This document shows, piece after piece, positions 10,551 to 56,767 of a stretch of DNA of 64,000 nucleotides (its first letter is position 1; each line of letters opens with the position of its first letter). The notes beneath the pieces were generated by a model that had not been told where the DNA came from, made no database searches, and was given only the letters and a program-made list of their open reading frames with translations. The translations under genes and the position numbers were made by a program. The stretch is taken from NCBI GenBank assembly GCA_005883305.1, contig VBAC01000001.1, forward strand, positions 1,612,001 through 1,676,000, read 5' to 3'. This stretch comes from Alphaproteobacteria bacterium. Its GTDB lineage: Bacteria; Pseudomonadota; Alphaproteobacteria; Sphingomonadales; Sphingomonadaceae.

Positions 10551-10672
10551 CCTCCCCGGAACGGGGAGGGGGACCAGCCGAAGGCTGGTGGTGGGGCCGA
10601 GAGAGGTGGAGGCGCTTCGACCCCTCCACCACGCGCTCCGCGTGCGGTCCCCCTCCCCGTTCCGGGGAGGAT
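10551..10672. repeat. Repeat family C, copy 1
   Basis: Both arms are complete: CCTCCCCGGAACGGGGAGG hairpin, then CCAGCCGAAGGCTGG hairpin, a spacer of about 35 bp, a GC-rich hairpin and the reversed GGAGGGGAACGG arm. It fills the whole gap between the 5-oxoprolinase stop (10675) and the DUF969 start (10545), and its left end supplies the DUF969 ribosome site. Confidence 0.9.
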
Positions 10673-10674
10673 TT

Positions 10675-13600
10675 TTACCCCTCGCCATAGCCCCCTCCTC
10701 CCGGAGTCTCGATCGCGAAGGCGTCGCCCGCCGCCATCTCCGCCGCGTCGGTTGCGCCCAGCATCTCCTCGCGCCCGTCCGCGCGCACCACCTTGTTCAC
10801 CCCCGGCGCCGCGTCCCTGCCGCCCGCAAGCCCGCTCGGCGGCACGCGGCGGCGGTTGGAGAGGATCGAGGCGGTCATCGGCTCCAGGAAGCGGATCTGC
10901 CGAACCACGCCGTCCCCGCCGCGCCGCGCGCCCTCGCCGCCCGAGCCGTGCCGCACCGCGAACCGCTCCAGCACCACAGGATAGCGCGTTTCCAATATCT
11001 CGGGGTCGGTCAGCCGGCTGTTGGTCATGTGAGTCTGCACCGCGCTCGCCCCGTCGAAGTCCGGCCCGGCCCCGGCGCCGCCCGCGATCGTCTCATAATA
11101 TTGATGGTCCGAATTGCCGAAAGTGAAATTGTTCATCGTCCCCTGGCTCGGCGCGAGCGCTCCGCAGGCGGCGAAGAGGCAGTCGGTGATCACCTGGCTG
11201 GTCTCGACATTGCCGGCGACGACCGCGGCGGGGAAATGCGGGTTGAGCATCGAGCCTTCCGGCACCTTCAGCGTGATCGGCCGCATGCAGCCGTCGTTGA
11301 GCGGGATCGCGTCGTCGACCAGGGTGCGAAAGACGTAGAGCGTCGCCGCCCGGCAGATCGAATGAGGGGCGTTGAAATTGTTCGGCTGCTGATCGCTCGT
11401 CCCGGCGAAATCGACCACCGCCGAGCGCTCCTCCCGGTCGACCCGGATCGAAACCTGAACGAACGCGCCATTGTCCATCTCGTAGCGGAATTCCCCGTCC
11501 GAGAGCCGCCCGATCAGCCGCCGCACCGCCTCTTCGGCATAGGCCATGACGTGGCCCATATAGGCGTCGACGACCTCGCGGCCCTGCTCCGCGGCCACCC
11601 TGCGCAGCTCGTTCGCGCCGCGCGCGCAGGCGGCGACCTGCGCCTTCAGGTCGGCGATGTTGCGGTCCGGATTGCGCGCCGGCCATTCGCCCGAGCCGAG
11701 CAGCGCGCGAATCTCGGCTTCGAGGAAACGCCCCCGATCGACCAGCAGCACATTGTCGATCAGCACCCCCTCCTCGCCGACGTCGCGGCTGTCGGGCGGC
11801 ATCGATCCCGGAGCGATCCCGCCGATGTCCGCATGATGCCCGCGTGCAGCGACGTACCAGGCGGGCGCGGAATCGCTCTCGACGAACACCGGCATGATCA
11901 CCGTGATGTCGGGCAAGTGGGTGCCGCCGCGATAGGGGGCGTTCAGCACGTAGACGTCGCCGGGCTTCATCCCCCTTCCGTCGCGCGGAGCTCCGGTTGC
12001 ATCTGGGCCCCGCGCCTCGATCGCGGTCCGGATCGAATCGCCCATCGATCCCAGGTGGACCGGGATGTGCGGCGCGTTGGCAATCAGGGCGCCGTCGCGG
12101 TCGAACAGGGCGCAGGAGAAATCGAGCCGCTCCTTGATGTTCACCGACGAGGCCGTGCTCTGCAGCGCCACGCCCATCTCCTCGGCGATGGCCATGAAGA
12201 GGTTGCCCATCACCTCGAGCTGGACCGGATCGACCTCGGTGCCCATCGCGGGGACCGAGGAGCGCGGGCTGGCGCGGGTGAGGATGAGGTTGCCGAGAGC
12301 GTCCACTTCCGCCCGCCAGCCCCGCTCGACGACGGTGGTTTGCGAGGGATCGATGATGAGGGCGGGGCCGGTGACGATGTCGCCGGGGAAGAGGGAGGCG
12401 CGGTCGTACAAATCCTCCCCGGAACGGGGAGGGGGACCAGCCGAAGGCTGGTGGTGGGGCCGCGAGAGGTGGAGGCGCCCCGACCCCTCCACCACGCGCT
12501 CCGCGCGCGGTCCCCCTCCCCGTTCCGGGGAGGAATGTTCGCCCTTCCCCACCGCCTCGACGATCGCCGTTTCCACCACGACCTCGGTCTCCGGCGCGTC
12601 GAAGCCGAAGCGAAGCCGGTGCGCGGCCTCGAAATCCTCGCGCATCCGCCCCGACACCGCCACTTCCAGCGTCGAATCGCTCCCCTCGTAGCGAAGCGCG
12701 GCGCGGCGCCGGACCTCCGGCGCATCCACGCCCTGCGCCCTCAGCGCCGCCACGGCCTCCCTCTCGAGCTCGGCAAGCACCGCGTCCAAAGCCGCCCCGG
12801 CCAGCGTGCGCTGCCTGAGCTCGACCATGTCCGCCAAGCCCATGCCATAGGCGCTGAGCACTCCTGCGAGCGGGTGGATCATGACCTTGCCGATGCCCAG
12901 CGCGTCGGCGACCAGGCACGCATGCTGGCCGCCCGCGCCGCCGAAGCATTGCAGCGTGTAGCGGGTCACGTCGTGGCCGCGGGCGATCGAGATCTGCTTG
13001 ATCGCACCCGCCATGTTGTCGACCGCGATCCGGATGAACCCCTCGGCGACGTCGCGCGCATCCATCCCGGCGCGCGAGGCGATTTCCTCGCACCGCGCCA
13101 GCGCGGCGGAAACGTCGATCGGCTGGTCCCCTTCGGGCCCGAAGACCTGCGGAAAATGCTCGGGCCTGATCTTGCCCAGCACGACGTTGCAGTCGGTCAC
13201 CGTCAGCGGCCCGCCGCGCCGGTAGCAGGCCGGCCCGGGCACCGCTCCGGCGCTGTCCGGCCCGACCCGGAAGCGGCGCCCGTCATAGTGGCAGACGGAT
13301 CCGCCCCCCGCGGCGACGGTGTGGATCTCCAGCATCGGCGCGCGCAGGCGGACGCCCGCCACCGCCCGCTCGCTGGTCCGCTCATAGGCGCCGGCGAAGT
13401 GCGAGACGTCGGTCGAGGTGCCGCCCATGTCGAAGCCGATGACATGGCCCTCGCCCGCCTCGGCCGCGGTCTTCGCCATGCCGACGATCCCGCCGGCCGG
13501 GCCGGAGAGCACCGCATCCTTGCCGCGGAACGTCGCCGCGTCCGTGAGGCCGCCGTTCGATTGCATGAAGAAGAGGCGGAGACACTGGCCATTATCCCCG

Positions 13601-17671: not shown

Positions 17672-19558
17672 TCATCCCTCCCCCTTCTCGATCCGCGCCA
17701 GCATCGCGCCCTCGCTCACTTGGGTGCCCTCCTCGGCGTTCAGCTCGGCGACGATACCGTCGAACGGCGCGGCCAGGCTATGCTCCATCTTCATCGCCTC
17801 GAGCGTCAGCAATTTCTGCCCCTTGGTCACCGTATCGCCCAGCTTCACCGCCAGCGCGATGATCCTGCCCGGCATCGGCGAGACGATCGCGCCGTCGCCC
17901 GCGGCGGCGCCGGCGGCGCCGTCCGTGCGGCTGATCGCGATCAGATACTGGGCGCCCTTTTTTTGCATGAGCTGCGCCTTGGGTCCGAGCTCGCGAAAGC
18001 TGCCCTCGTATCGGCCCGGTCTGTTAGGCTGGAAGTCAAACGCGGTACGCTCGCCATTTACATCGAGCGCCAGGCGCCGCTCGCGTTCCCGATTCAGGCG
18101 GAAGCCGAAGAGAGGCGCCGTCATGGGCGAGTAGTCCATCGACTGGCGCGCGAACCACATTGCGGCATCACTCAGGTCGCGCGCGGTTGGCGGTGGATCG
18201 AGCAAGATCGCCTTGCCTCGGCCCGCAATCAGCCCGGTATCGACATCGCCCGCCTTGACATCTGGATCGCGGAGCAGGCGAACGAGGAAGGCAATATTGG
18301 TTTTGACAGGCCAGACAGTGGTGTACTCGAGTTCGCTGGCAAGGGCATCTAACGCCTGCATCCGGCTCGGCGCGTGGACGATCACCTTGGCGATCATCGG
18401 ATCGTAGAAAGGCGATATGCTGGCCCCTTCTTCCACGCTGGTATCGACACGGGCGTCGCCGCAGGGCTGGAAAATGTCGAGCCGGCCCGTGCTCGGTAGG
18501 AAACCCGTCGCGGGGTTCTCGGCATAAAGCCGCGCCTCCATCGCCCAGCCGTTGATGCTGAGTTCGTCCTGCGTCTTCGGCAGCGTCTCGCCGCTCGCCA
18601 CCCGAAGCTGCCATTCGACCAGATCCTGCCCGGTAATCTCCTCGGTCACCGGATGCTCGACCTGGAGGCGGGTGTTCATCTCCATGAACCAGATGCGGTC
18701 GGCGCGCAGGCCCTCGCTCGCGTCGGCGATGAACTCGATCGTCCCCGCGCCGACATAGTCGATCGCCCTGGCCGCCTTGACCGCCGCCCCGCACACCGCC
18801 GCCCGCGTCGCCTCGTCCATCCCCGGCGCCGGCGCCTCCTCGATCACCTTCTGGTGGCGGCGCTGGAGCGAGCAGTCGCGCTCGAACAGATGGACGACAT
18901 TGCCGTGCGTATCGCCGAACACCTGCACCTCGATATGGCGCGGGCGCTCGACATATTTTTCGATCAGGACGCGGTCGTCGCCGAACGAGGAGACCGCCTC
19001 GCGCTTGCACGAAAGCAGCATTTCCTCGAACTCGCCGGTCGCATTGACCTTGCGCATCCCCTTGCCGCCGCCGCCCGCGACCGCCTTGATCAGCACCGGA
19101 TAGCCGATCGCGTCGGCCTCTTTTTGCAGCCGCTCGGGCGACTGATCCTCGCCGAGATAGCCGGGCGTTGTCGGCACGCCCGCTTCGTCCATCAGCTTCT
19201 TGGCCGCGTCCTTGAGCCCCATCGCGGTGATGCTTGCCGGTCGCGGCCCGACCCAGATCAGCCCCGCGTCGATCACCGCCTGGGCGAAGCCGGCGTTCTC
19301 GGACAGAAACCCGTACCCAGGATGGATCGCCTCCGCCTCGGTCTCCTTCGCCGCGGCGATGATCTTCTCGCCCACGAGATAGCTCTCCCGCGCCGGCGAA
19401 GGCCCGATATGCACCGCCTCGTCCGCCTCGCGCACGTGCAGCGCCCTGGCGTCCGCATCCGAATAGACCGCCACCGTCCGCACCCCCAGCCGCCGCGCGG
19501 TGCGAATGATCCGGCAGGCAATCTCGCCGCGATTGGCGATGAGCAGGGACTTGATCAT
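17672..19558 (-). CDS. liuD: Methylcrotonyl-CoA carboxylase, biotin-carboxylase/carrier subunit
   Basis: A 628-residue protein. It begins MIKSLLIANRGEIACRIIRTA (biotin carboxylase N-domain), has the ATP-grasp loop GGGGKGMRKV near residue 165 and the catalytic FMEMNTRLQVEHPVTE segment. A linker domain leads to a C-terminal biotinyl domain with LEAMKMEHSL; the biotinylated Lys is residue 590. With liuB it carboxylates 3-methylcrotonyl-CoA in leucine breakdown. Acetyl- or propionyl-CoA carboxylase subunits look alike, but the liuA/liuB neighbours favour this role. The ATG overlaps the stop of the NTF2-like gene (ATGA). Confidence 0.9.
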   Translation of the reverse strand: MIKSLLIANRGEIACRIIRTARRLGVRTVAVYSDADARALHVREADEAVHIGPSPARESYLVGEKIIAAAKETEAEAIHPGYGFLSENAGFAQAVIDAGLIWVGPRPASITAMGLKDAAKKLMDEAGVPTTPGYLGEDQSPERLQKEADAIGYPVLIKAVAGGGGKGMRKVNATGEFEEMLLSCKREAVSSFGDDRVLIEKYVERPRHIEVQVFGDTHGNVVHLFERDCSLQRRHQKVIEEAPAPGMDEATRAAVCGAAVKAARAIDYVGAGTIEFIADASEGLRADRIWFMEMNTRLQVEHPVTEEITGQDLVEWQLRVASGETLPKTQDELSINGWAMEARLYAENPATGFLPSTGRLDIFQPCGDARVDTSVEEGASISPFYDPMIAKVIVHAPSRMQALDALASELEYTTVWPVKTNIAFLVRLLRDPDVKAGDVDTGLIAGRGKAILLDPPPTARDLSDAAMWFARQSMDYSPMTAPLFGFRLNRERERRLALDVNGERTAFDFQPNRPGRYEGSFRELGPKAQLMQKKGAQYLIAISRTDGAAGAAAGDGAIVSPMPGRIIALAVKLGDTVTKGQKLLTLEAMKMEHSLAAPFDGIVAELNAEEGTQVSEGAMLARIEKGEG

Positions 19559-20007
19559 TGCGTGGGGCATCCGCTGGTGTGCGACGAGAAGGTCAGGTTC
19601 ATGACCTTCCAGTTCCCATTCTCGCGCACCAGATCGAAGTGATCGTAGCCGCAATTGACCACCCGCCCGCCAGCGCGGACGACGAACGGCGCCCAGACCA
19701 TCGCGATGTCGCCGTCGACGGCCACCCTGGGGCCGGAAATCCGCTCCTGGAAAGCGCCCTGCGGCGTCACCCGCCCGGCGAACTGGGTCCAGCTCATCTG
19801 CCGCACATTCGACGCCCCGTCGCCGCGCAGGCCCGAGGCGGTTACGCGCCCGTCGGGATAGACCTGGGCCAGCATCGCCGCCGAGTCGCCCGCCTCGAAA
19901 GCAGCGAACAGAGCATTCAGGGGCGCCATCACCGCCGCGCGGTCGGCCGGGGCCGGCTCCGCGGCCGGGACGGCCGACGCGAGCAGCAAGGCAGAGAATA
20001 TGGTCAT
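19555..20007 (-). CDS. Exported NTF2-like (SnoaL-type) protein
   Basis: A 150-residue protein with a short signal peptide (MTIFSALLLASAVPAAEP). The rest has the layout of the NTF2-like alpha+beta barrel: an N-terminal helix with AVMAPLNALFAAFEAGDSAAM, then strands ending GNWKVMNLTFSSHTSGCP. Such proteins are often periplasmic and without known activity. It overlaps liuD by 4 bases and is therefore translated in the same operon, although an obvious role in leucine breakdown is lacking. Confidence 0.75.
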   Translation of the reverse strand: MTIFSALLLASAVPAAEPAPADRAAVMAPLNALFAAFEAGDSAAMLAQVYPDGRVTASGLRGDGASNVRQMSWTQFAGRVTPQGAFQERISGPRVAVDGDIAMVWAPFVVRAGGRVVNCGYDHFDLVRENGNWKVMNLTFSSHTSGCPTQ

Positions 20008-20014
20008 CGCGCTT

Positions 20015-20410
20015 CTACTCCTCGACCGCCTGGACCGCGCCGACATAGCCGGGCCGCGGCCCCGAAATGTAGCCCGCGAAAATCTCGATCAGCTCTTCGG
20101 CGGAAAAGGTTTCGTTCCCTTCGTGCATGGGCCGGTTGTCGTACAGCAGATATTCCGGACCCGGCGGGCCGAGCCGCGAACGAATGACGAAGCCGCCGCC
20201 CCGCGCCTCGGCCGATAGGATGCAGCGGTCGCAGGTCTCGATCATGACGCTCGCGCAGCCCCCCGGCCGCGCGCACCGCGCGAGCGCCCGGCGCACCGCC
20301 GCCGCCGACGCGACCCGCACCGGCGCGGCGTCGTCGATCGACAGCATGCCGGGCATCGGGGGCTCGGCCGCGGCCATCGCGAGTAGCATGGCAATAAACG
20401 CGCCGATCAC
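20015..20410 (-). CDS. Exported cysteine-containing hypothetical protein
   Basis: The best start is GTG at 20410, because GGGGAGGATTTGCA directly before it is an ideal ribosome site, itself the end of the family C arm; the ATG at 20389 has none. The 131-residue product opens with a hydrophobic signal peptide ([17 protein letters not shown]). The mature part has four Cys in CARPGGCASVMIETCDRC, spaced for two disulfides or a metal site, and the segment GPPGPEYLLYDNRPM. I do not recognise the family. It lies 7 bases before the NTF2-like gene, in the same operon. Confidence 0.7.
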   Translation of the reverse strand: MIGAFIAMLLAMAAAEPPMPGMLSIDDAAPVRVASAAAVRRALARCARPGGCASVMIETCDRCILSAEARGGGFVIRSRLGPPGPEYLLYDNRPMHEGNETFSAEELIEIFAGYISGPRPGYVGAVQAVEE

Positions 20411-20898
20411 TGCAAATCCTCCCCGGAACGGGGAGGGGGACCGTCCGAAGGACGGTGAAGGGGGCCCAGCCTTTGACACCCGCTCACAATTCCGAGGATC
20501 ACACCCTCCAAATTGCGAAACACCTCGCGGGCAGGAATCCGCATCATCGTGAACCCCAACTCCTCAAGGTAGCGATCCCGCCCCGCATCGCGCTCCGGCT
20601 GGCCGGCCCGATCATGCGCTTCGCCATCGACCTCAATGGCAAGCCGGACGGCCAGGCAGGCAAAGTCGATCGAGAACGGCCTCTGTGGACATTGCTTGCG
20701 AAACCGAAACCCGCCCGGCCGCTCACGCAGCGCGCGCCAGAGCATCCGCTCGGGCGGGCTCATCTCCTTGCGCAGCTTGCGGGCGAGCTTGACCGTCTTG
20801 ATCGGCGCCCGAAGGACGCGCGGGCCCCCTCCACCAGCCTTCGGCTGGTCCCCCTCCCCGTTCCGGGGAGGATTTGGTGCAGCGCTTCCCACGATCAC
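20407..20898 (-). CDS. DUF559 Vsr-like nuclease carried between two family C repeat arms
   Basis: A DUF559 protein of the PD-(D/E)xK superfamily, related to the Vsr mismatch endonuclease. The core reads [20 protein letters not shown], then [20 protein letters not shown] with the catalytic Asp and Glu, and [22 protein letters not shown]. It appears intact. The start given is GTG at 20898, which overlaps the liuB stop as GTGA; this makes the first 25 residues ([17 protein letters not shown]) come from the right repeat arm. GTG at 20892 or ATG at 20763 are alternatives. The C-terminus [11 protein letters not shown] is encoded by the left arm, and the stop overlaps the next gene. DUF559 function is not established; its place inside a palindromic element suggests a role in spreading it. 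Confidence 0.8.
20414..20875. mobile_element. Repeat family C, copy 3: gene-bearing form with DUF559 between its arms
   Basis: The left arm (20414-20465) has the AATCCTCCCCGGAACGGGGAGG hairpin and a CCGTCCGAAGGACGG hairpin; the right arm (20822-20875) has CCAGCCTTCGGCTGG and the reversed outer hairpin ending GGGGAGGATTT. Gene-less copies have these same arms separated by only 20-50 bp, whereas here about 355 bp of DUF559 core lies between them. The whole unit sits inside the leucine-degradation operon between liuB and the next gene. Confidence 0.75.
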
Positions 20899-22490
20899 AT
20901 CCTGAACACGCCGAACTTCGCCCGCTCCGGAATGGGCGCGTTCAGCGTCGTTGCAAAGGCGAGGCCGAGAACGTCGCGGGTCTGGGCCGGATCGATGATC
21001 CCGTCGTCCCACAACCGCGCGGTGGCGTGGTAGGGGTTGCCTTCGTCCTCGTAGCGCTGGCGGATCGGGGCCTTGAAGGCTTCGGCCTCCTCCGCGCTCC
21101 AGCCTTCCGCATCCTTATGCACGGTGGCGAGTACGGATGCGGCCTGCTCGCCGCCCATCACCGAGATGCGGCTGTTCGGCCAGCTGAATAAGAATCGAGG
21201 GCTGTAGGCCCGCCCGCACATGCCGTAATTGCCCGCGCCGAAGCTGCCGCCGATCAAAACGGTGATCTTGGGCACGCTCGCTGTCGCCACTGCCGTCACC
21301 AATTTGGCGCCGTCCTTGGCGATTCCGCCGGCCTCGTATTTGCCGCCGACCATGAAGCCCGAGATGTTCTGGAGGAACAAGAGGGGCGTTCGCCGCTGGC
21401 AGGCGAGCTCGATGAAATGGGCGCCCTTCATCGCGCTCTCGCTGAACAGGATGCCGTTATTGGCGAGGATCGCGACCGGCATCCCCCAGATCCGGGCGAA
21501 GCCGCAGACCAGCGTGCTCCCGTAAAGCGCCTTGAACTCGTGGAACTCGGAGCCATCGACGAGCCGGGCGATCACCTCGCGCACGTCGTAGGGCGTGCGC
21601 ACGTCGTCCGGGATCACGCCGTAGAGCCCCTCGGGGTCGAATTTCGGCGGCGCCGGTTCGGCAAGGTCGATGTCGATCGCCTTCGCTGTGTTCAGCCGCG
21701 CCACGATGTCGCGAACGATGGTCAGCGCATGCTCGTCATTCTCGGCCAGGTGATCGACCACGCCCGATTTGCGCGCGTGAAGGTCGCCGCCGCCCAGATC
21801 CTCGGCGCTGATCACCTCGCCCGTCGCCGCCTTCACCAGCGGCGGCCCGCCGAGGAAGATCGTGCCCTGATTGCGGACGATCACGCTCTCGTCGCTCATC
21901 GCCGGCACGTAGGCCCCGCCCGCGGTGCAGCTGCCCATCACGCAGGCGATCTGCGCCAGCCCCTCCGCCGACATCTGCGCCTGGTTGTAGAAGATCCGCC
22001 CGAAATGCTCGCGGTCGGGGAAGACCTCGGCCTGGTGCGGCAGGTTGGCGCCGCCCGAATCGACCAGGTAGACGCTCGGAAGCCGGTTCTGCAGCGCGAT
22101 CTCCTGGGCGCGCAGATGCTTCTTCACGGTCATCGGATAATAAGTGCCGCCCTTCACCGTCGCGTCGTTGCACACGATCATCGTCTCGCGTCCGGAAACG
22201 CGGCCGATCCCGGCGATCACCCCGGCGCCCGGAACCTCGCTTTTGTACATGTCGCAGGCGGCGAGCTGGCCGATCTCGAGGAAGGGGGAGCCCGGATCGA
22301 GCAGCCGCTCCACCCGCTCGCGCGGAAGCAGCTTGCCGCGCGAGACGTGGCGCTCGCGCGACGTCTCGTTGCCCCCGAGCGCCGCCTCCGCCACCCGCGC
22401 GCGCAGCTCATCCGCCAGGGCGCGGTTGTGGGCCGCGTTGGCGCGAAAGGAGTCGCTGGTGTCGTCGAGCTTTGAGGTCAGGACTGTCAT
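20895..22490 (-). CDS. liuB: Methylcrotonyl-CoA carboxylase, carboxyltransferase subunit
   Basis: A 531-residue protein, close to the usual 535. It starts [20 protein letters not shown]; longer readings upstream come from repeat DNA. Both halves of the carboxyltransferase fold are present, with [36 protein letters not shown] and, in the C-half, [17 protein letters not shown] and [18 protein letters not shown] (oxyanion-hole regions). It transfers the carboxyl group from biotin on LiuD to 3-methylcrotonyl-CoA. Its stop overlaps the probable GTG start of the DUF559 gene. Confidence 0.94.
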
Positions 22491-22510
22491 GTTTGCCGGC
22501 CCCGGAACGT

Positions 22511-22617
22511 CCCTCCCCCCCTGTGGGGGAGGGTAGGGTGGGGGGTGCGGGCCATGAGGCCCGCGCGCGGCGACGCCGCGCACCCCCACCCCAGCCCCTC
22601 CCCACAAGGGGGAGGGA
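22511..22617. repeat. Repeat family D, copy 3
   Basis: Arms CCCTCCCCCCCTGTGGGGGAGGG and CCCCTCCCCACAAGGGGGAGGG with GTGGGGGGTGCG / CGCACCCCCACCCC inside. It lies between liuB and the 92-aa membrane gene. Confidence 0.88.
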
Positions 22618-22641
22618 TTATGAAAGAGCGCATCCCGACCC

Positions 22642-22920
22642 TCACGCCTTCGCCCCCTCGGCATGAACCGGCTTCTTGCGGATCAGGTAGCGATACACCC
22701 CGATCACGTTGATCATGAGGAGCACCACGTTCTGGGTCCCGATTCCTTCGCCCTCGTCGTTGAGGAAGCCCCAGAAGATCAGCGCCAGCGAGGAGGTGAC
22801 GAAGATGACGAACGCCCACCCCGTGGGCCTCCGCCCGAGATCGAGGCTGACGATCAGCGCCGCCAGCGCCCCGGCCGCGGCCCCGTAATATTGGAGCGCA
22901 TTCAGCAGGCCTTCGCTCAT
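22642..22920 (-). CDS. Small membrane protein of 92 residues
   Basis: Three hydrophobic segments at about residues 10-26, 34-52 and 62-78, and a basic C-terminus ([17 protein letters not shown]). The last segment, [20 protein letters not shown], resembles the end of several small inner-membrane families, but I cannot name one. It lies upstream of liuB on the same strand, separated by a family D repeat, so it may share that transcript. Confidence 0.65.
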
Positions 22921-51559: not shown

Positions 51560-51592
51560 GCGGAAGCAAAAACGCGAAATGGACTTCGGTTC

Positions 51593-54106
51593 CTAGCGCC
51601 GCCCTTGGTGGCGGATATTGCCCGGGCGACCGCGGCGTCCCTGCTGCCTTTTGCCGCCCCGCTCTTCGCGCGGCTTCGGCGCCCGGCCGGCGCCGCGCGG
51701 GGCGTCGGGAAGCTCGAAGCGCAACGCCCCGCTCACCGGATCGGCCTCGGCGAGTCGAAGAGTCAGGCGCTGGCCCAGCGCATAGGTCTCGCCGCTCTCG
51801 TCGCCGGCCAGGGTCTGGCTTGCCTCGTCGTAGCGGAAATATTCGCGGCCGAGCGTCGCCGCCGGCACCAGGCCATCGCCGCCCAGCTCCTCGACCGTCG
51901 CGAAGAAGCCGAACGGCTGAACGCCCGTGATCCGGCATTTGACCAGCGCGCCGACCTGCTCGGAAAGGTAAGCGGCGACGTAGCGGTCCATCGTCTCGCG
52001 CTCGGCCACCATCGCCCGGCGCTCGAGGTTGGAGATGAGCTCGCCGATCACGTCCATCGACGTCGCCTCCTCGTCGGTCAGCCCCCCTTCTCCGAGCCGG
52101 TAGGCGCGGACGAGGGCGCGGTGGACGACGAGGTCGGCATAGCGCCGGATCGGCGAGGTGAAATGGGCGTAGGAGCCGAGCGCGAGCCCGAAATGGCCGT
52201 GATTGTGCGGGCCGTAATAGGCCTGCGTCTGGGTGCGCAGGATCTGCTCCATGATCTGGGGAAGGATGGGGGATTCCTGGTCCTCCCCGGAACGGGGAGG
52301 GGGACCGCTCGCGGAGCGGGTGGTGGCGGGGCCGGTGCGCCGGCTCGCTTCGCTCGCGACCCCTCCACCAGCTGCGCTGGTTCCCCTCCCCGTTCCGGGG
52401 AGGATTTTTGCCTCTCGAACCCGCTCGATGATGTGGTTGAACGTCGCCGGCCGCACGACCTGGCCGAGCGCGAACTCGATGCCGAAGGTCTTGAGGTAGT
52501 CGCGCAGGGCAACCAGCTTCTCGCGGCTCGGCGGCTCGTGGACGCGGTACATGACGCCGGCCTTCTTCGCCTCCAGCGCCTTGGCCGCGGCGACGTTGGC
52601 GGCGATCATGTAATCCTCGATCAATTTGTGCGCATCGAGCCGCTCGCGCGGAGCGACCGAGAGGATCCGCCCCTTCTCGTCGAGCGTCACCCGGCGCTCG
52701 GGCAGGTCGAGCTCGAGCGGGGCGCGCTTGACCCGCGCCGCGTAGAGCGCCCGCCAGCAATCCCAGAGCGGGCGCAGCTGGTCGAGGATCGTACCCTCGA
52801 TCTCGGGCATCGAGCACGGCGAGGAGGAGACTTCGACCGGCTCGTCCGAGTCGATCGCCGCCTGCGCGTCCTCATAGGCGATGTTGGCCGCGATTCGCAC
52901 CCGCGCCCGGCTGAACCGCCAGCTCTTGAGCGCGCCCGCCTTGGTCACCTGAAGATGGCAGACGAGCGCCGCCCGGTCCTCGCCTTGTTTCAGCGAGCAG
53001 ACCTCGGCGGAAAGAATCTCGGGCAGCATCGGCACCACCCGGTCCGGGAAGTAGACGCTGTTGCCGCGCTTCCTCGCCTCCTTGTCGAGCGCCGAGCCGG
53101 GGCGGACGTAGAAGCTGACGTCGGCGATGGCGACGATCGCCTTCCAGCCGCCGGCATTGGCGGGATCGTCGTCGCTCGCCGCCCAGACCGCGTCGTCATG
53201 GTCGCGCGCGTCGGCCGGATCGATCGCGACGATCGGAATGTGGGTCAGGTCCTCACGCAAATCCTCCCCGGAACGGGGAGGGGGACCGCCGAAGGCGGTG
53301 GTGGGGTCGGAGGCGGTCGGCCCCTCCACCAGCCTGCGGCTGGTCCCCCTCCCCGTTCCGGGGAGGATTGGGAGTTTCGCCACCCGCTCAGCTTCATCGG
53401 TGACGGCGTCGGGAAACTCGTGCGGGATGCCGTGCTTGTGGATCGCGATCAGGCTGAAGCTGCGCGGTGCGAACGGGTCGCCGAGGATCGTGTCGACCCG
53501 TGCCGCCAGCCGCGGCGGCCGCCCGACCTTCTCGGCCAGCACCAGATCGCCGACCTCAGCCTCTCCCAGGTCGGATATCGGAAGCTCGCGCCGCTCCTTC
53601 TTCTCGACCGGCCGCAGCCAATGCCCCTCCCCCTCCTTGTGAACGACTCCGAGCACCAGCTCGCTGCCCTTCAGCAGCTTCTTCATCGGATGCGCGATCC
53701 AGCCGTCGCGCCCTTCTTCGTTGCGCGCGAGAATGCGGTCGCCGACGCCGAGCGCCGCGGCCCCGCGCCCCTTGCGCTCCATGACGCGCAGCCGCGGCGG
53801 CGGCCCGTCCGCCTCCCAGCGCTCGGGCACCGCGAAGGCGCGCCCCGAATCGTCGATGTCGGCGACTCGAAGCACGGTGACCTTCGGCACCCCACCCATC
53901 TTGTGGAAGGCGCGGCCCGGCCCGGCGTCGATCAGCCCCTCGTCGCCCATGTCGCGAAGCAATGCCTTGAGCGCGATCTTCTCATTGCCCTTGAGCCCGA
54001 ACGCCCGCGCGATCTCGCGCTTGCCCGCCGGGTCTCCGGAGGAGGCGATGAACTCCAGAATCTGCTGGCGGCTGGGAAGGCCGGCCTGTCTCGGTTTGCG
54101 TGGCAT
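51593..54106 (-). CDS. rnr: Ribonuclease R with two repeat-derived insertions
   Basis: An 837-residue 3'-to-5' exoribonuclease. It has an N-terminal winged helix (LPSRQQILEFIASSGDPAGKR), cold-shock domains, the RNB catalytic core (VAIDPADARDHDDAVWA with the metal-binding Asp residues, and NSVYFPDRVVPMLPEI), a C-terminal S1 domain (GALVKCRITGVQPFGFFATV) and a basic Gly/Arg tail. Two stretches are foreign: about residues 246-282, just before the catalytic domain, and about 566-608, within the RNB domain before the segment HNHGHFGLALGSYAHFTSPIRR. Both come from family C repeats and keep the frame. The active-site residues I can check are intact. Confidence 0.94.
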   Translation of the reverse strand: MPRKPRQAGLPSRQQILEFIASSGDPAGKREIARAFGLKGNEKIALKALLRDMGDEGLIDAGPGRAFHKMGGVPKVTVLRVADIDDSGRAFAVPERWEADGPPPRLRVMERKGRGAAALGVGDRILARNEEGRDGWIAHPMKKLLKGSELVLGVVHKEGEGHWLRPVEKKERRELPISDLGEAEVGDLVLAEKVGRPPRLAARVDTILGDPFAPRSFSLIAIHKHGIPHEFPDAVTDEAERVAKLPILPGTGRGTSRRLVEGPTASDPTTAFGGPPPRSGEDLREDLTHIPIVAIDPADARDHDDAVWAASDDDPANAGGWKAIVAIADVSFYVRPGSALDKEARKRGNSVYFPDRVVPMLPEILSAEVCSLKQGEDRAALVCHLQVTKAGALKSWRFSRARVRIAANIAYEDAQAAIDSDEPVEVSSSPCSMPEIEGTILDQLRPLWDCWRALYAARVKRAPLELDLPERRVTLDEKGRILSVAPRERLDAHKLIEDYMIAANVAAAKALEAKKAGVMYRVHEPPSREKLVALRDYLKTFGIEFALGQVVRPATFNHIIERVREAKILPGTGRGTSAAGGGVASEASRRTGPATTRSASGPPPRSGEDQESPILPQIMEQILRTQTQAYYGPHNHGHFGLALGSYAHFTSPIRRYADLVVHRALVRAYRLGEGGLTDEEATSMDVIGELISNLERRAMVAERETMDRYVAAYLSEQVGALVKCRITGVQPFGFFATVEELGGDGLVPAATLGREYFRYDEASQTLAGDESGETYALGQRLTLRLAEADPVSGALRFELPDAPRGAGRAPKPREERGGKRQQGRRGRPGNIRHQGRR
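52281..52407. repeat. Repeat family C, copy 6, in-frame inside rnr
   Basis: Both hairpin arms are present, with an inner CCGCTCGCGGAGCGG hairpin. In the rnr frame it enters as [15 protein letters not shown] and leaves as GPPPRSGED. It sits in the RNB domain region, before LPQIMEQILRTQTQAYYG. Confidence 0.92.
53260..53369. repeat. Repeat family C, copy 7, in-frame inside rnr
   Basis: Both hairpin arms, with inner CCGCCGAAGGCGG and CCAGCCTGCGGCTGG hairpins. In the rnr frame it enters as [17 protein letters not shown] and leaves as [10 protein letters not shown], just before REDLTHIPIVAID, the start of the RNB core. Confidence 0.92.
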
Positions 54107-54113
54107 CTCAATC

Positions 54114-56657: not shown

Positions 56658-56767
56658 AAATCCTCCCCGGAACGGGGAGGGGGACCTGCCGGAGGCGGGT
56701 GGGGGGTCGGAGGCTGTCGGCCCCACCACCATGCTTCGCATGGTCCCCCTCCCCGTTCCGGGGAGGA
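56658..56767. repeat. Repeat family C, copy 8
   Basis: Both arms with CCTGCCGGAGGCGGG and ACCATGCTTCGCATGGT inner hairpins. It occupies every base between the stop codons of two convergent genes (56657 and 56768). Confidence 0.92.

Follow-up and report, generated by a model that had tools for sequence, protein, structure and literature searches.

A DUF559 nuclease gene enclosed by inverted palindromic arms: a possible homing-like partner of bacterial repeats

What is a nuclease gene doing inside a palindromic repeat? The question is raised by a locus at 20.4 kb of the window, as we call the whole 64,000-nucleotide stretch of sphingomonad DNA analysed here. At this locus a DUF559 gene lies between two arms of a repeat (family C, arm type I) that also occurs in gene-less copies. 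The arms, at 20413–20467 on the plus strand and, inverted, at 20822–20876 on the minus strand, were paired by an inverted-repeat search: they are 55 nt each, 91% complementary and separated by a 354-nt spacer, and the unit comes to about 455 bp in total. The left arm consists of a hairpin, CCTCCCCGGAACGGGGAGG, which recurs genome-wide, an inner hairpin and a G-rich tail. As judged by the list of open reading frames and the Pfam match, the nuclease reading frame takes in the arms and spans 20407–20898 on the minus strand, with the family-aligned core (locus L006) at 20488–20787 by profile alignment. The GTG at 20898, a putative start codon, matches the start given in an earlier note on this DNA, and translation of the arms is putative likewise; upstream, the open frame reaches as far as a GTG at 21012, within the neighbouring gene. 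From their protein sequences, we take this neighbour (20895–22664) to be a liuB-type carboxyltransferase gene and the gene at 17672–19654 to encode a biotin carboxylase subunit. The element had been described as sitting between liuB and the next gene: the liuB-type gene does adjoin it, but on the other side at least two short frames precede the biotin carboxylase-like gene.

The protein itself has the marks of a nuclease. In a Pfam profile search it matched DUF559 with 87.7 bits (PF04480; cut-off 20.6, E 5.7e-25). PF18741 followed with a weaker score (41.8 bits, cut-off 38.2), and PF10881 stayed below its own cut-off; these three were the only Pfam matches, the latter two being families of nuclease type or of unknown nature, and no transposase domain was among them. 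Because the window protein retains all 12 invariant columns of a 46-sequence alignment (R43, E50, W54, F66, Q69, D78, E89, D91, G92, H95, D104 and R107), the nuclease active site looks intact. A structure model built from the 46-row alignment has a mean pLDDT of 80, with values of at least 83 in nine of the ten blocks of residues 41–140; residues 1–30 and 151–163 are modelled with low confidence and carry no secondary structure. Searched with Foldseek, the model matches the Neisseria gonorrhoeae protein 3hrl (E 7.1e-7), the homing endonuclease I-Bth0305I (3r3p, E 3.6e-4) and, weakly, Vsr (1vsr, E 0.015). A sequence profile also finds 3hrl and 3r3p (E 0.0013), its remaining matches having E values of 0.32 or worse. 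Model and profile thus point to a single DUF559 domain of about 100 residues, predicted to be related to the EDxHD homing endonucleases and Vsr. The DUF559 genes furthermore show signs of purifying selection: pN was below pS in 137 of 137 pairs from six same-place gene groups, at ratios of 0.23–0.43 that are rough since pS is near saturation.

To see how general the arrangement is, we took 250 nt on each side of every DUF559 core, reverse-complemented the piece after the core and aligned it with the piece before it. Windows shifted off the core at the same loci served as controls, and the threshold of 15.5 is the 99th percentile of 214 of them. From the 130 matches of the genus and order sample, 118 loci were examined; without two entries from the window's own genome (L008, the second piece of L007, and the truncated L009) and four loci at contig ends, 112 remained. 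Paired arms enclosed 100 of these 112 as compared to 1 of the 214 shifted windows, with median scores of 32.5 and 10, respectively. The same threshold was passed by 36 of 56 loci in a class and phylum sample (57 loci, taken as the best match per genome and the best 30 loci per search, less one that was too short) as compared to 1 of 111 controls. In a collection-wide sample of the best 80 of more than 571 loci, 57 of 77 passed after three too-short loci had been dropped, or 56 of 76 once L290, a run of N, was removed; none of 148 controls did. One collection-wide core (L255) is identical to a core of the class and phylum sample (L229). The shifted windows rule out chance pairing of flanks. When flanks of different loci from the class and phylum sample were randomly combined, 16% exceeded the threshold, as different loci have arms of the same families. 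The pairing of DUF559 genes with arms, whose recurrence the earlier note had offered as its own test, therefore extends well beyond this locus. Enclosure at the locus itself, which had likewise been claimed, is borne out by the inverted repeat and the PF04480 match, control windows almost never reaching such scores.

Enclosure is not universal, failing at 12 of 112, 20 of 56 and 20 of 76 loci, that is, at a tenth to over a third. By this test the arm pair is absent from two E. coli loci (L252 and L253) and two Neisseria loci (L254 and L330). Four enclosed loci (L323, L307, L308 and L217) lie in low-GC records (0.33–0.43), and their arms are still GC-rich. The window's own genome (3.03 Mb in three contigs) contains nine DUF559 matches that make up eight loci, L007 and L008 being two pieces of one frameshifted gene, and six of its seven testable loci pass the threshold. 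The arms around them come from different repeat families, which makes family C one case of a wider pattern. The sole full-length DUF559 gene of this genome to fail, L004 (G000:C1:2208731-2209036), is flanked by palindromes on just one side.

That nuclease and arms diverge as partners is shown by the arm type, which follows the nuclease clade. We sorted the arms into five classes by patterns written after inspecting the arms. The two arms of a locus fell into the same class at 65 of 112 loci and into different classes at none; at 33 loci only one side was classifiable and at 14 neither was. In the protein tree, the nucleases with type I arms (family C, 36 rows) make up one side of a branch with an SH-aLRT of 100, and six arm labels, including the unclassified one, require 14 changes on the tree as compared to 67.3 when shuffled. 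Since places recur across species, we then took one locus per place, 'same place' groups being chains of flank matches, and excluded the 14 of 112 unclassified rows from neighbour tests: the nearest relative had the same arm class at 43 of 45 places, the permuted mean being 11.7 and the maximum 24 in 5000 permutations. Type I nucleases were seen at 20 separate places, always with type I arms. At one shared place with eight loci, the arms are of type III at three loci, of type II at four and unclassified at one, which indicates that the two arms of a resident gene can switch type jointly. Many DUF559 placements are common to several species, which suggests that movement is rare or has ceased.

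A comparison of liuB loci with and without the unit, as proposed earlier, brings out gene-bearing, gene-less and bare states among 26 genomes of the genus, all of which have the carboxyltransferase gene that neighbours the element. The interval on the liuB side holds a DUF559 gene with arms in ten genomes, in one orientation in seven (G000, G002, G006, G008, G012, G015 and G016) and in the opposite one in three (G001, G007 and G020). G024 and G041 have a gene-less arm pair at this place, G011 has three hairpins in an interval that is truncated before the next gene, and G004 has a single hairpin; the remaining 12 genomes have neither nuclease nor arms (with the interval closed in nine). A nuclease without arms was seen at this place in none of the 26 genomes, which speaks against arms having been added later to an old core, and we reject the idea that an ancestral core gained its arms separately here.

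The window contains five gene-less family C units with a perfect hairpin, of 104–122 bp from the first to the last hairpin base. This span corrects the spacing previously given for gene-less arms (20–50 bp), as it leaves a gap of about 6–24 bp with the arm limits of the earlier note. Four of the units fold far better as DNA than their shuffles (z from -8.1 to -12.9). The first (10551–10670; z -8.66) was found by the hairpin search, the second (12414–12533; z -8.09) lies within a minus-strand open frame of 1282 aa, and a unit between genes (56662–56766; z -10.37) is missing in G006. The other two, at 52282–52403 (from the hairpin search and protein alignment) and 53263–53366 (z -12.94), both lie in frame within one 840-residue frame (about 51590–54113, minus strand), which from its motif we take to be RNase R-like. 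They add about 34 and 46 residues; the aligned RNase R-like proteins from G006 and G008 lack this extra sequence but are nearly identical on either side of it. These two units support the part of the earlier reading that concerns gene-less copies, which here are in-frame insertions. Having the same arms, the gene-less family C copies are most likely passengers of the DUF559 element. Their flanks are often AT-rich (AAAT/ATTT-like), and the genus relatives are too diverged to provide base-exact empty sites.

Gene-bearing units can lie within genes as well. In genome G253, a DUF559 unit with arms (L235) is in frame inside a gene that we take to be type I restriction methylase-like; the gene is uninterrupted in nine compared relatives, which have a short variable loop at the spot, with repeat-like residues in two. 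Similar open frames run through the units of L307, L308 and L323. L307 and L323, from different low-GC records, have the unit in frame at apparently the same spot of a presumably peptidase-like gene. Such placements inside coding sequence, shared by the gene-less copies, together with the 20 different places at which the type I nuclease keeps type I arms, make it very improbable that the protein is a resident host enzyme for Vsr-like repair or maintenance, with arms that act as terminators or autoregulatory sites and with no mobility. The signs of purifying selection, the placements common to several species and the strong hairpins of the arms would suit a host enzyme, as would the Caulobacter DUF559 protein VsrA, which its authors, in the part of PMC12907096 consulted, take to be a mismatch-repair endonuclease.

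Type I arm motifs number 2–233 (median 39.5) in the 22 genomes of the genus that have a type I nuclease and 0, 1, 1 and 25 in the four that lack it (p 0.0047), the 25 being those of G041. Upon subtraction of the nuclease's own arms the association gave p 0.014 for type I and a non-significant p 0.11 for type II; these p values are generous, as the genomes are related, and for G021, G023 and G041 the best blastp match supplied the nuclease type. With a nuclease of one type set against arms of another, p was 0.087 and 0.099, so the association may partly reflect general repeat richness. The type III arm motif had few matches in the genus, with a nearly equal reversed control in several genomes. 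Type I copies that bear the gene are limited to 1–4 per genome having any.

Could another enzyme own the arms? Y1 transposases (PF01797) were matched in 11 of the 26 genus genomes, and genomes that have them tend to be richer in type I motifs (medians 57 and 12, p 0.011). However, 15 genomes have no Y1 match, one of them being G012 with its 233 type I motifs. In 16 stretches that cover 18 of the 19 Y1 matches, the type I motif was not found at all. For the matches examined, we accordingly reject the idea that RAYT owns the type I arms. Pairing of the flanks at Y1 loci is not informative: a score over 17 is reached by 13 of 17 loci and also by 60 of 182 cross-paired flanks, and the score does not separate the two. 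The Y1 genes of the genus often have GGTGACAGTGCACT-like or GGGGACA-like sequence on their flanks (L374–L389), which differs from the DUF559 arms.

E. coli strains offer a closer look at how arms change. At yjdP-phnP (L360–L365), six strains have a gene-less arm pair that is full, reduced to a single hairpin, collapsed or absent, a polymorphism that looks like deletion between hairpins and not insertion; recombination or slippage of this kind thus happens. At sapF-fabI (L354 and L358), only pieces of arms are left beside the DUF559 gene ycjD. A query containing ycjD matched over at least 80% of its length in 3364 of 5426 genomes, and in two strains lacking ycjD other genes occupy the place. 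The deletion- or slippage-like pattern at yjdP-phnP, like the higher type I counts in genomes with Y1, is what one would expect if the palindromes were spread by Y1/RAYT transposases or replication slippage and the DUF559 genes merely sat inside them as passengers. We regard this as improbable: genomes lacking a Y1 match reach the highest type I count, the examined surroundings of Y1 genes are free of the motif, and at 43 of 45 places the arm type agrees with the DUF559 clade.

The earlier note had gone further and cast the nuclease as the mover of the palindromes, a claim that we do not uphold: neither a clean target-site duplication nor an excision product was found among genus relatives, which are too diverged for base-exact junctions, placements are shared between species, and copy number follows the nuclease loosely. 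In true transposition the nuclease would serve as the transposase: it would recognise the hairpins of the arms, perhaps in single-stranded form, and move or copy the whole palindrome to new sites, with gene-less units as MITE-like derivatives. The in-frame position of two units in a gene whose counterparts in two relatives are free of them, the strong hairpins, and the type I motif counts (up to 233 per genome, and higher in genomes that have the type I nuclease) could all be read in this way. The missing duplications and excision products and the handful of gene-bearing type I copies per genome count against it; moreover, we know of no strand-transfer activity in a single domain of about 100 residues. 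On this evidence we judge transposition to be unlikely.

We favour instead a homing-like conversion of existing palindromes, which fits the evidence no less well than transposition does. Our reasons are the lack of any observed duplication and the flips and gene-less states at one place, which suit recombination between inverted arms. On balance, we think it rather likely that the unit at 20.4 kb is a very small self-contained element in which inverted palindromic arms and one DUF559 nuclease form a homing-like partner system. The nuclease would recognise its own arm class, probably through the hairpin and G-rich tail, as the congruence of arm type and clade suggests; judging by its predicted fold and intact-looking active site, it may then nick or cut DNA at or beside such palindromes. 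Repair of the break by copying another unit through the arms could lead to the gene being gained, lost or flipped, flips being possible because the arms are inverted repeats. Copying of this kind agrees with the mixed states seen beside liuB. Rarer events may seed new gene-less copies, which would be tolerated because the arms often read through in frame.

Among the closest known systems, REP/REPIN sequences and their RAYT (TnpA-REP) enzymes are similar in logic, and what we describe is perhaps a nuclease–palindrome partner system of REP/RAYT-like logic and homing-like behaviour. Both have short palindromes arranged as inverted pairs with many gene-less copies, and both have one or few enzyme genes per genome that are flanked by cognate palindromes and are long-term residents (for RAYT, as covered in the consulted parts of PMC8049555 and PMC3733652). 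The comparison is apt because in both the enzyme clade matches the palindrome type. The enzymes differ, however, a DUF559 nuclease here and an HuH tyrosine transposase (PF01797) there, and the family C arm lacks a GTAG tag, in addition to the type I motif being absent around the Y1 matches examined. With the EDxHD homing endonuclease I-Bth0305I, the element shares a related nuclease fold, by predicted structure and sequence profile, and a gene that is small and may favour its own inheritance. It differs in having repeated palindromes as flanks, with no intron or intein recognised around it, and in consisting of the catalytic domain alone, whereas I-Bth0305I is described in the consulted part of PMC3943268 as a multi-domain dimer acting on nearly 60 bp. 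By description, Rickettsia palindromic elements are similar in that gene-less palindromes lie in frame in protein genes, but the sections of PMC10969869 consulted mention no encoded partner enzyme. The DUF559 proteins YcjD and VsrA are, along with Vsr, relatives of the PD-(D/E)XK type; the consulted parts of PMC1189080 and PMC12907096 do not link a DUF559 protein to flanking palindromic repeats. Pairs of MITEs and autonomous insertion sequences resemble the element in that gene-less copies have the terminal inverted repeats of the gene-bearing copy, but the latter here totals about 455 bp, with no transposase domain in the window protein and no target duplication seen.

In titles and the openings of abstracts, with subscription journals and most preprints lying outside the scope of the search, we found no report that connects DUF559 with palindromic repeats. 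Some bacterial palindromic repeats, such as the CGTC class, have no known mover according to the part of PMC3733652 consulted. The recurrent pairing suggests a kind of very small mobile DNA that has not been described, which may explain the origin of many bacterial palindromic repeats. More broadly, and with slightly less than an even chance of being right, DUF559 genes with GC-rich CCCTCTCCC...GGGAGAGGG palindromes could be widespread minimal mobile elements (about 0.45 kb, with one nuclease domain and no transposase) that seed and maintain a very common family of bacterial palindromes and enter low-GC genomes with their GC-rich arms kept. If so, the DUF559 family, whose function is unsettled, would gain a biology, repeats that are often treated as background would gain a partner enzyme, and the unit would stand out as an unusually small autonomous element. 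The pairing also lends itself to a direct test, in which binding and cutting by a DUF559 protein are compared between its own arm and an arm of another type.

Finally, one query protein gave no match in phage records at E 1e-5. The two Neisseria loci at which the arm test failed (L254 and L330) have a TTTTCAGACG-like motif on both flanks, which we take to resemble the DNA uptake sequence.
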